Origin: Vreelandella subglaciescola
Lineage (GTDB): Bacteria > Pseudomonadota > Gammaproteobacteria > Pseudomonadales > Halomonadaceae
Reading direction: 5' to 3'
Assembly (NCBI RefSeq): GCF_900142895.1
Contig: NZ_LT670847.1
Span: 1,798,001 to 1,862,000, forward strand
DNA length: 64,000 nt
In this document: positions 37,731-51,479 of the stretch, one piece after another
Numbering within the stretch: position 1 is the first letter of the stretch
Layout of the letters: each line of letters starts with the position of its first letter
The notes under the pieces: model-generated
What the model was told of the DNA's origin: nothing
Databases searched by the model: none
What the model saw: the letters and a program-made list of their open reading frames with translations, nothing else
Program-made: the position numbers and the translations under genes

Positions 37731-37832
37731 CTTGCCCTAGCGCTTGCGCTCAATATCAATGGCGCTTGCCCGCCTTGGTCGAAAGGTAGTGTTCATTGTG
37801 CGGGTTGAGGCCGGTGGTCAGCGCCACCCGCT
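37731..37832 (-). pseudogene. Decayed 3' end of ribA
   Basis: This stretch follows 50845 onward (CTTGCCCTAGCGCTTGCGCTC and on), with scattered changes and an internal deletion of ~47 bases, and ends at the CACCCGCT of the ribA segment for TTGLNPHNEHYL. It keeps the ribA stop region and nothing upstream. The intact ribA is 13 kb away at the other side of the phn cluster, so this is a footprint of the event that placed the cluster here. Confidence 0.85.
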
Positions 37833-37887
37833 ATAGCTGAAAAAAACGACGGTTGTGCATTGCATGCCACCTCGAACACGCCCGCAG

Positions 37888-38664
37888 CTACATCGCCGGC
37901 ATTCGTCCCCAGTCTTCCAGAGTCTCGCCGTCCCGGGCGATGCGCACATTGGGCGGTAGCACCGGCGGTTCGTCCAGACACTCGGCGTCCAGATCGTGAC
38001 CGATATGGGTGAAATACGCCCGGGGCGGATCGAGGCGAGTGATGATGTCGAGCGCCTGGGTGATGGTGTTGTGGTTGCGCGGCGTGGCGTAGGACGCAGG
38101 GTGGCAGGCATCCAGCACTACCACATCGGGCTCCCAGGCACGCAGGAAACGCTCGGTTTCCATCGGCAGGCCGAGGGTATCGGTGAGATAGGCAAGCCGC
38201 GTGCCGCCGTCATCGAGACAGTAGCCAAGCGTCGGCCTGGAGTGGTTGAGCGCTACCGGCGTCACCGTCAGGCTCTCGAGCTTAATGGGCTTGAACGGTT
38301 TGAGTCCGGGCTGAAAGTCCAGCACGCCCGAATTTCGATACAAGTCTGCACAGCCATGGGCGTCCTTCGGGCCATACACCGGAATCGGCTCTCCCCCACC
38401 CCAGCGCAAATGGAACAGCCCTTGAACATGGTCGGCGTGATAATGCGTGATCAAAAAGGCCGCGGGGCGCTCGATCTCGCAGCTATGGGCCAAGTCCATG
38501 CGCCCGGCATCGAGCAGATAGCGCTTGCCGTCGACGTGGATCTCGGCCGCGCATGGCCCGCGCTGCAGGCTCGTAAACACCCGCGCTCGATTGCAGGCCG
38601 CACAGTCGCAGCCAAAGCGTGGCACCTGGGCACTATCACCGGTGCCGGCAAATCGAAACTCCAT
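37888..38664 (-). CDS. phnP: Phosphoribosyl 1,2-cyclic phosphate phosphodiesterase
   Basis: 258 residues; the start MEFRFAGTGDS is chosen for GGGGAGC upstream. Metallo-beta-lactamase fold with the signature THYHADHVQGL, an extra Cys cluster at the start (RFGCDCAACNRAR, the PhnP zinc site), and late histidines (DACHPAS; FTHIGHDLD). It opens the cyclic phosphate left by C-P lyase. Last gene of the cluster. Confidence 0.94.
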   Translation of the reverse strand: MEFRFAGTGDSAQVPRFGCDCAACNRARVFTSLQRGPCAAEIHVDGKRYLLDAGRMDLAHSCEIERPAAFLITHYHADHVQGLFHLRWGGGEPIPVYGPKDAHGCADLYRNSGVLDFQPGLKPFKPIKLESLTVTPVALNHSRPTLGYCLDDGGTRLAYLTDTLGLPMETERFLRAWEPDVVVLDACHPASYATPRNHNTITQALDIITRLDPPRAYFTHIGHDLDAECLDEPPVLPPNVRIARDGETLEDWGRMPAM

Positions 38665-38696
38665 CGATAGCTCCCCTGCCATGACTTTCCGAGACC

Positions 38697-39257
38697 TTAA
38701 ATCCGGGACGAACAACGCCCTTCGATCACCGCTGTCAGTTCCGCAAGACTGTCGGAAAGACTCCCGCCGTTGTCGATCCGGGCGAGCCTGGGAAAGGACT
38801 CGGCCAGTTCACGCGCTACCTCCCGGTGGCGCTCGAGTCGGCGTTCGATCTCGCCGGGCGATTCCCGTCCGCGCTCCACCAGCCGCCGACGCAGCACCTC
38901 GGAGGGCGCAGTGACCACTACCGCCACCAGCGCCTCGCCGAAGCGATCACGCGCTCTCGGCAAGGCCCGTCGACTGCCGTTAAGCAGCACCGTAGTGCCT
39001 CTGGCAAGCCATGCTTCGACCTCCACGCCAATGCCGTAATTCAGGCCGTGGGCGTGCCAATCAAGACACAGCAACCCGAGTTCGCGGCGCACCGCGAACT
39101 CGGCGTCGCCAAGCGCCACGCAGTCCTCATCGGCACCGCTTGCCCGGGTCAGGTAGCGATGCGCCACCAACCATTCGGGATACGCGCTGCGTGCAGCCTG
39201 CAGCAGGCTATCCTTGCCGACACCGCTGGCGCCAATGAGATAGATCAGCTGGCCCAT
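38697..39257 (-). CDS. phnN: Ribose 1,5-bisphosphate phosphokinase
   Basis: 186 residues. The P-loop is LIGASGVGKDSLL, and the guanylate-kinase-like fold continues with RYLTRA and the lid RRRLVERGRES. It converts ribose 1,5-bisphosphate to PRPP, the end of the C-P lyase route. Its ATG overlaps the phnM stop (TGATG). Confidence 0.92.
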   Translation of the reverse strand: MGQLIYLIGASGVGKDSLLQAARSAYPEWLVAHRYLTRASGADEDCVALGDAEFAVRRELGLLCLDWHAHGLNYGIGVEVEAWLARGTTVLLNGSRRALPRARDRFGEALVAVVVTAPSEVLRRRLVERGRESPGEIERRLERHREVARELAESFPRLARIDNGGSLSDSLAELTAVIEGRCSSRI

Positions 39258-49649: not shown

Positions 49650-49731
49650 CTAGGTGATGGAATTGTCTGATGCGAGTGTGCTGCAGTTGGAAGATCGTTC
49701 GGTACCGGGCGGCCAACGATAACGATCAGGC

Positions 49732-50595
49732 TCAGGCCATGACCGGCGTTGTCGGAGGTTGAGTGGTATCGCTCTGACGATTGAGAGGCGACGCATGGGC
49801 CCCCAGAGCTTCGCCAGCACGCAGTTCATCGAGGCCGGCATTCTCGTAAAGCGACTGCAGACGCGCATCGGTGAGCTCGCTAATGGCTCCATCGAAGTAC
49901 AGCCGGCCGTCCTTGAGGGCGATGGCGCGATGGCAGTAGCGGCGAGCGACATCGACCTGATGCAGGGTAACGATCACGGTGCGGCCATCTTCGGCGTGGA
50001 TACGGCTCAGAATTTCCATGACTTCGCGGGCACTGCGTGGATCCAGTGAGGCAATCGGCTCGTCGGCCAGAATGACGTCGGCGTCCTGCATCAGCACCCG
50101 AGCAATGGCGACCCGCTGCATCTGGCCCCCGGACAGGGTATTGGCGCGCTGATTGGTCATTTCTTCCAGACCAACTCGAGCTAAACAGGCTCGCGCCCGC
50201 TGGCGCTCCTGTTCAGTGAATCGCCCAAGCAGTGCCCGGGCGCGGGGCATGCTGCCGAGCCGCCCGATCAACACGTTGCTCAGCACACTCAGACGACCGA
50301 CCAGATTGAACTGCTGGAAGATATAGCCGATGCGACAACGCTCGCCGCGACTGGCCCGACGCAGGCGACCACTGGCCTGAACTTCTCGTCCCATCAGTTC
50401 AACACGACCGCCCCGCCCGCGATTGCCGCAGGTCAGGCCGACCAGATGACGCATTAGAGTAGACTTACCGGAACCGGACGGGCCGATCAGCGCGACCATC
50501 TCGCCCGATGTGACGCGAAAATTAACCTCGTCGAGCACCTGACGGTGACCAAAGGACTTGTGCAATTGCTCAACGATAATGGTGGGAATGGACAT
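49732..50595 (-). CDS. phnC: Phosphonate ABC transporter ATP-binding protein PhnC
   Basis: 287 residues; AGGAGAGGTG precedes the start. Walker A GPSGSGKSTLMRH, signature LSGGQMQRVAIAR, Walker B DVILADEPIASLD. First gene of the cluster; the upstream 50596-50843 stretch is AT-rich and holds the likely operon promoter, with a weak PHO-box-like string (CTGACATATTTTAGACAAC on the minus strand). Now separated from phnD by an IS. Confidence 0.95.
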   Translation of the reverse strand: MSIPTIIVEQLHKSFGHRQVLDEVNFRVTSGEMVALIGPSGSGKSTLMRHLVGLTCGNRGRGGRVELMGREVQASGRLRRASRGERCRIGYIFQQFNLVGRLSVLSNVLIGRLGSMPRARALLGRFTEQERQRARACLARVGLEEMTNQRANTLSGGQMQRVAIARVLMQDADVILADEPIASLDPRSAREVMEILSRIHAEDGRTVIVTLHQVDVARRYCHRAIALKDGRLYFDGAISELTDARLQSLYENAGLDELRAGEALGAHASPLNRQSDTTQPPTTPVMA

Positions 50596-50843
50596 GACAC
50601 CTCTCCTCTAGGAATGGCGCCAGTCTGGGTGTCCAAGATGAAACTCAGTTGTCTAAAATATGTCAGTTTGATGATGATTTTCGCGATTTCGCACTCATCG
50701 CTCTCGAAGTTCTAAGAAAATATAGAACAATATCAACACATTATTTTTTATTGTCATCGTGTTGACATCCTTATGCCGCTAAAATGTCACCTGTTTTTCT
50801 GCGTTTTCGCTTTAAAGGGCAAACATCGTAAAGTGATCTTGCC

Positions 50844-51479
50844 CTAGCGCTTGCGCTCGATATCCACGGCGCTGGCCGGCGTGAAGTCGCCCAGCGTCAT
50901 CATGTGACCGAGCTTGCCCGCCTTGGTCGAAAGGTAGTGCTCGTTGTGCGGGTTGAGGCCGGTGGTCAGCCCCACCCGCTCGACCACGTTGACGCCATCG
51001 CGAGACAGCGCATCGACCTTGCGCGGGTTGTTGGTCATCAGCCGGAGTGCCTTGACGCCCAGATGATCGAGCATCGGCACGCACAGGTCGTAGCGGCGCA
51101 TGTCGGCGCCAAAGCCCAGCTGCTCGTTGGCTTCGACCGTGTCGGCGCCACCGTCCTGCAGGTGATAGGCGCGGATCTTGTTCAACAGGCCAATACCACG
51201 CCCTTCCTGACGCAGATACAACAGCACGCCGCAGCCCTGTTCGGCGATGCGCTTCAGCGCCTCCTGAAGCTGGTAGCCGCAGTCGCAGCGCATGGAAAAC
51301 AGCGCGTCGCCGGTCAGGCACTCCGAATGTACCCGCCCAAGCACCGGCGCATCGCCGCTGACGTCGCCAAGCGTCAGGGCTACGTGGTCCTTGCCGGTGG
51401 CTTCGTCTTCGAAACCGTGCAGGGTAAATGTCGCCCAGGGGGTGGGCAGCCGGGATGCGGCAATGAAGCGAATCGTCAC
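50844..51479 (-). CDS. ribA: GTP cyclohydrolase II
   Basis: 211 residues from a GTG with GAGGTAACC upstream. Zinc cysteines in ECLTGDALFSMRCDCGYQ, GTP-binding RQEGRGIGLLNKIRAY, and TTGLNPHNEHYLSTKAGKLG near the end. First step of riboflavin synthesis. A broken copy of its 3' end is at 37731-37832. Confidence 0.96.
   Translation of the reverse strand: MTIRFIAASRLPTPWATFTLHGFEDEATGKDHVALTLGDVSGDAPVLGRVHSECLTGDALFSMRCDCGYQLQEALKRIAEQGCGVLLYLRQEGRGIGLLNKIRAYHLQDGGADTVEANEQLGFGADMRRYDLCVPMLDHLGVKALRLMTNNPRKVDALSRDGVNVVERVGLTTGLNPHNEHYLSTKAGKLGHMMTLGDFTPASAVDIERKR

Follow-up and report, generated by a model that had tools for sequence, protein, structure and literature searches.

Prophage e14 of Escherichia coli lies at icd, where a displaced icd piece of 163 bp is found (PMC6379469). 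Homology-facilitated illegitimate recombination has been proposed for orphan immunity genes in the type VI secretion system (T6SS) clusters of Vibrio cholerae (PMC5361080) and has been reported in E. coli conjugation (PMC3240628). Many gene-transfer hotspots lack recognizable mobile elements, and recombination at flanking core genes has been put forward for them (PMC5635113). We analyzed a 64,000-nucleotide window (the whole stretch of DNA under study) from the halophile Vreelandella subglaciescola, whose genome is 3.11 Mb in one contig; all coordinates are window positions. In this window a phn operon, encoding carbon-phosphorus (C-P) lyase, lies between a djlA-like gene and the vitamin B2 synthesis gene ribA, with a second, partial copy of the ribA 3′ end at its far edge. 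We consider it likely that the operon of ~13 kb, together with its upstream region, was inserted horizontally at the 3′ end of ribA, and we infer that it entered without an integrase.

The locus resembles e14 at icd in that a housekeeping gene has an insert at its 3′ end, one copy supplies the end of that gene, and a displaced copy (~160 bp in e14) lies on the far side (PMC6379469). However, e14 is a prophage that integrates site specifically, whereas the phn insert holds only a metabolic operon and an insertion sequence (IS), with no integrase gene. As in the V. cholerae T6SS case, a module appears to have been added at one homologous anchor, leaving the old gene end opposite (PMC5361080). 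In V. cholerae, what is left over is a complete gene belonging to the system itself; at ribA, the remnant is the tail of a core gene beside an unrelated operon, no donor was found, and both copies carry private bases. Like the hotspots of PMC5635113, the locus is a variable stretch, flanked by conserved core genes, whose contents are unrelated from species to species. The double homologous recombination proposed in that paper would, by our reasoning, leave no duplicated gene end; the scar described here suggests that at least one end of the insert was joined nonhomologously.

A displaced ribA end at the edge of the phn segment

An unanchored repeat search of positions 36000 to 53000 returned direct repeats of the ribA 3′ end at both edges of a 13,005-bp segment (37833 to 50837). 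Left of the segment is the djlA-like gene (36963 to 37718, plus strand), with TerB and DnaJ domains, followed by a ribA 3′-end remnant (37731 to 37832, minus strand) in what would be the ancestral position of the ribA end. To the right are intact ribA (50844 to 51479, minus strand) and hemE (51683 to 52816, plus strand). The remnant copies the terminal 143 bp at the intact gene (50838 to 50980, minus strand), which include the stop codon and 6 bp past it. A preliminary description of this DNA had stated that the remnant repeats the ribA end with changes, and it does so in two pieces, one of 69 bp at 96% identity (37764 to 37832 against 50912 to 50980) and one of 43 bp at 88% (37731 to 37773 against 50838 to 50880). 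The internal deletion, given there as ~47 bases, measures 41 bp (offset 13148 minus 13107). A search of the whole genome gave E values of 2.4e-25 for the 69-bp match and 1.7e-7 for the terminal match. When ribA-end alignment scores were compared with those of 500 letter shuffles, the remnant scored 82 and the best shuffle 17.2.

Comparison of both copies with the ribA ends of three close relatives (G225, G146, and G138) places the deletion and four of six clear substitutions on the remnant side. The other two substitutions fall on the intact side, one of them uncertainly, since the intact base is also found in G138. The working gene ends in the copy joined to hemE, and the one beside djlA is orphaned and decaying. 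Both copies also carry CTTGCC before the stop codon and CTAGCG at it. Of 111 distinct ribA ends, the window's alone has this combination, and the 110 others lack it. Because the two copies share these private bases, the duplicated segment would derive from this lineage itself or from a donor very close to it, unless gene conversion later made the copies alike.

Empty sites in the nearest relatives

We compared 82 genomes of the genus and 201 of the family; relatives are labeled G plus a number. Ranked by DjlA, the nearest kin are G225 (93% identity; assembly 79% complete), G138 (90%), and G146 (88%). In two of these three, G146 and G225, djlA stands directly next to ribA, the arrangement that the preliminary description had predicted for genomes without phn, and no remnant is present. 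In G146, the two stop codons are 24 bp apart, and one alignment spans window positions 31143 to 37832, covering dxs, djlA, the spacer, and the ribA end. In G225, 12 bp separate the stops; the djlA end is split between two contigs with a 55-bp overlap, and from ribA onward the genome matches window positions 50840 to 61211 at 90%. By sequence and by these stop-to-stop distances, the 18 bp at 37719 to 37736 are the native djlA-ribA spacer. The third relative, G138, has a different insert of 6.2 kb in the interval, also without a ribA remnant.

From the empty sites in G225 and G146 it follows that the remnant is the original ribA end, displaced from its gene but still where it stood in the ancestor, and that the 13,005 bp are an addition. 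The comparison thus shows an insertion that postdates the split from G225 and G146.

Conflict between the phn and core gene trees

Including the window's genome, PhnJ was found in 49 of the 201 family genomes and 10 of the 82 genus genomes, two of the latter at only 43% identity; none was found in the 79%-complete assembly of G225. The window's PhnJ is closest to that of G164 (94%). The core sisters G138 and G146 have PhnJ at 88%, in clusters located elsewhere. We built trees of PhnI to PhnM and of RibA plus HemE, the latter pair alone serving as the core tree, for 18 of the 51 genomes with PhnJ (49 of the family, G220, and G229), namely those with both loci available. In the core tree, the window's genome groups with G138 and G146 (support, 100/99). 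In the phn tree, it groups with G164, G152, G229, G068, and G006 (100/100). The phn genes reject a group of the window's genome with G138 and G146 (approximately unbiased test, p-AU = 4e-53), and ribA plus hemE reject the window's genome with G164, G152, and G229, a group named only after the tree was seen (p-AU = 2e-42). The phn phylogeny thus does not track the core, as had been predicted. Because the two trees conflict, we read the phn genes as horizontally acquired from a phn lineage of other Halomonadaceae. The earlier proposal that the cluster entered beside ribA with duplication of the ribA 3′ end is supported by this conflict together with the empty sites.

The plasmid-borne PhnJ collection (215 records) contained no close donor, its best match being 80%. 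Comparison of the flank of the G146 phn cluster with the window's genome, to look for its insertion site there, gave two matches of 75 to 76% (outer part, 1951 kb) and one 37-bp match elsewhere. Separately, the phn proteins of G138 (locus L176) and G146 (L177) are near-identical (end branches, 0.0016 and 0.0048), with ribA-plus-hemE branches of 0.089 and 0.044 for the same two genomes, and their phn cluster has no phnF match. This pattern suggests a recent transfer of phn between or into G138 and G146.

Contents of the inserted segment

The complete set phnC, -D, -E, -F, -G, -H, -I, -J, -K, -L, -M, -N, and -P is present as open frames, all on the minus strand. From left to right these are phnP (37888 to 38715; NCBIfam TIGR03307), phnN (38697 to 39257; TIGR02322), phnM (39257 to 40402, with the start set within a longer open reading frame [ORF] at 39257 to 40552; TIGR02318), phnL (40395 to 41201; TIGR02324), phnK (41242 to 42057; TIGR02323), phnJ (42057 to 42935; PF06007), phnI (42932 to 44092; PF05861), phnH (44092 to 44829; TIGR03292 and PF05845), phnG (44832 to 45323; TIGR03293 and PF06754), and the regulator phnF (45368 to 46120; TIGR02325). 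The transport genes follow: the permease phnE (46181 to 46975; PF00528), the binding protein gene phnD (47044 to 48060; PF12974), and the ATPase gene phnC (49732 to 50595; PF00005). NCBIfam names phnF, -G, -H, -K, -L, -M, -N, and -P, and Pfam names phnG, -H, -I, and -J; phnI and phnJ had no NCBIfam match. phnC, -D, and -E have the expected transport domains and the usual order, phnE and phnC being placed as in other phn clusters. The core genes phnG to phnM are, as read from the sequence, all present and open. The order phnC-D-E-F-G-H-I-J-K-L-M-N-P is that of most other Halomonadaceae loci, from which this operon differs in its position at ribA and in having an IS between phnC and phnD.

The region upstream of phnC extends to the right edge of the insert (50596 to 50837), and its first ~90 bp resemble the phnC upstream region of other phn genomes. 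Comparison of both insert ends with other phn loci showed that the outermost ~50 bp on the left and ~40 bp on the right match nothing clearly; the next ~100 bp at the right end match two loci only, at 63 to 65%. A second phosphonate-type binding protein (PF12974) is encoded outside the insert, beyond hemE (53749 to 54735), and a homologue at 82 to 85% is likewise found beyond hemE in the loci of four relatives (G201, G209, G213, and G214). The gene looks older than the insert because of these homologues.

The preliminary description placed a full phnC-to-phnP set between the two ribA copies. The gene content stands, but the set is interrupted by an IS that was not mentioned there (48071 to 49653, plus strand). 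The IS is 1,583 bp long, has terminal inverted repeats CTAGCAGTCTGTCGGACTT, and encodes a DDE transposase (48143 to 49498); it lies between phnD and phnC and splits the operon. It begins 10 bp upstream of the likely phnD start, which we placed at an internal ATG (48058 to 48060); the GTG of the longer phnD ORF, at 48099, falls within the IS. The genome carries eight full-length copies, ~100% identical, and one partial copy, and the element has probably been active recently. Since the copies are near-identical, whereas the ribA remnant has diverged by 4 to 12% and lost 41 bp, the IS looks younger than the insert. It may uncouple phnD to phnP from the phnC promoter.

A variable interval with a second scar

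Across the family, the djlA-ribA gap ranges from 40 bp to 17 kb. We scanned 104 distinct djlA-ribA loci, and the gap exceeded 5 kb in 32, a share inflated by the deliberate choice of genomes with long gaps. The insert of G138 (L174, 9440 to 15683) is a catabolic block with a GntR regulator, an aldehyde dehydrogenase, a class III aminotransferase, an acyl coenzyme A (acyl-CoA) dehydrogenase, and a family III CoA-transferase. G033 has a 13.5-kb block (L216, 4648 to 18178) that encodes a formamidase (PF03069) and, by ORF reading, an amidase, a urea/amide-type ABC transporter, and regulators. The far end of the G033 block repeats 37 bp of the ribA end at 97% identity. G184, which is 95% identical to G033 along the stretch, runs straight into ribA.

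Among the genomes examined, ten of the genus have the left end of this amide/urea block, at L216, L269, L268/L289, L290, and L217, with remains at L292, L291, L275, L231, and L267. In nine of the ten, the block-end stretch aligned with the genome's own ribA end better than all 500 shuffles; the G121 match was at chance, with 164 of 500 shuffles reaching its score. The copies are clear in G220 (39/39 positions, identical base for base to its own ribA), G033 (35/36), G205 (35/37), G219 (32/36), and G208 (26/30). Short alignments gave weaker copies in G216 (26/35), G201 and G148 (both 23/31), and G229 (21/27). In nine of the ten, the copy stops 33 to 42 nucleotides (nt) from the start of the stop codon. 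Over the 104 loci, ribA-end copies passed an E value of 0.001 in four: the window, G033, G205, and G208. The differing freshness of the copies between species could reflect repeated entry or gene conversion.

Relatives that lack phn at this place and carry a ribA copy, which the preliminary description had held to speak against insertion, thus do occur, clearly in the five genomes named first and more weakly in others. However, their copies flank a different gene block and are absent from the window's nearest kin, and we read them as recurrence at the site and not as a refutation. We rejected the idea that the window's remnant is a leftover of the amide/urea block, given that G225 and G146 have no remnant and that the remnant carries private bases of the window's own ribA. 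Apart from these loci, G232 has a second ribA-end-like match on another contig (G232:C23:121678-121746). That assembly has 2% contamination, and the match may represent another ribA gene or a contig of foreign origin.

Routes of entry and alternative explanations

The favored explanation is that the operon entered the interval between the core genes by general recombination or repair. By one route, homology to ribA would have anchored one end, and the opposite end would have been joined illegitimately within the resident ribA end, that is, by homology-facilitated illegitimate recombination, which would need a very close donor or later gene conversion. By another, a break in ribA would have been repaired with overlapping ends, duplicating the target. 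In the genome as it stands, ~143 bp of ribA are doubled. The 100-bp stretches starting at 50888 and 50938 are 0.78 to 0.80 identical to G225, and the others wholly inside ribA are 0.84 to 0.96 identical, but both copies have the private bases. A protein with a ComEC/Competence domain is encoded in the genome, which would permit DNA uptake and is weakly consistent with such entry, although it does not show it.

Several observations weigh against this explanation. None of 17 other phn loci, a subset of the phn genomes scanned over 20 kb each, has ribA nearby, and no donor was identified. The private bases in both copies are a poor fit to the ribA end of a distant donor. A donor tract sought by comparing the ribA genes of G033 and G184 gave p = 0.067, and mismatches cluster elsewhere too. 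Finally, the first piece of the window's remnant ends ~30 to 37 nt from the start of the stop codon, near the 33 to 42 nt of the amide/urea block copies, and such similar edges could hint at a fixed recombination site.

That last observation and the resemblance to e14 at icd would fit a tyrosine integrase whose attachment site lay in the ribA 3′ end, its gene since lost or acting in trans. We think this unlikely. The phn insert contains no integrase gene, as the preliminary description had noted for the interval, and the nearest of the genome's seven PF00589 matches is ~57 kb away. Inspection by eye found none in the ORF lists of the G138 insert (at least 80 amino acids) and the G033 block (at least 120 amino acids), a reading made with no family search of the whole lists and with the other gaps unsearched. 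Moreover, the window's copy extends 69 bp past the putative core. A tRNA-type attachment site was rejected, the sole tRNA in the window being at 19356 to 19432. An IS that carried or rearranged the cluster might be suggested by the multicopy element within it, but the single IS copy in the insert is internal, no IS lies at the insert ends, which are instead flanked by ribA copies, and the element appears to be younger than the remnant. We rejected transport of the cluster by this IS and regard any such mobilization as highly improbable. Equally hard to credit is old vertical inheritance, in which an ancestral phn cluster was lost in the relatives and the remnant is an unrelated tandem duplication. 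Loss would also scatter phn as PhnJ is scattered over the family, and recombination between direct repeats would restore an empty site. Against this stand the tree conflict, the phn clusters of G138 and G146, which lie elsewhere and belong to another clade, the position of all 17 scanned loci away from ribA, and the private bases that the remnant shares with the window's ribA. Horizontal insertion at the ribA 3′ end remains the explanation that we favor.

Recurrence at the ribA end

In our view, the recurrence of the scar is more interesting than the single insertion, since a second, unrelated operon has a like scar at the ribA end in several species. Among the papers listed by literature searches, including those for phn with Halomonas and for Halomonas islands, we found none on ribA as an insertion site of this kind, and none in which a single gene end serves two unrelated metabolic operons that lack an integrase. 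One speculative proposal, which we put forward as doubtful, is that in this genus metabolic cassettes without an integrase repeatedly dock at the last ~37 bp of ribA. If so, phosphonate and amide/urea operons would enter and leave at one gene end, with general recombination substituting for an integrase; each entry would double the host's ribA tail, and recombination between the repeats would excise the cassette and restore the empty site.

Entry into hotspots that lack mobile elements is often unseen, and here a readable scar is accompanied by empty sites in close relatives. The locus offers a natural system for dating, comparing, and experimentally testing how whole metabolic operons are acquired without an integrase. 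As regards phosphonate ecology, it illustrates how a species would have gained a phn cluster different from those of its sisters, at a new place in the genome.

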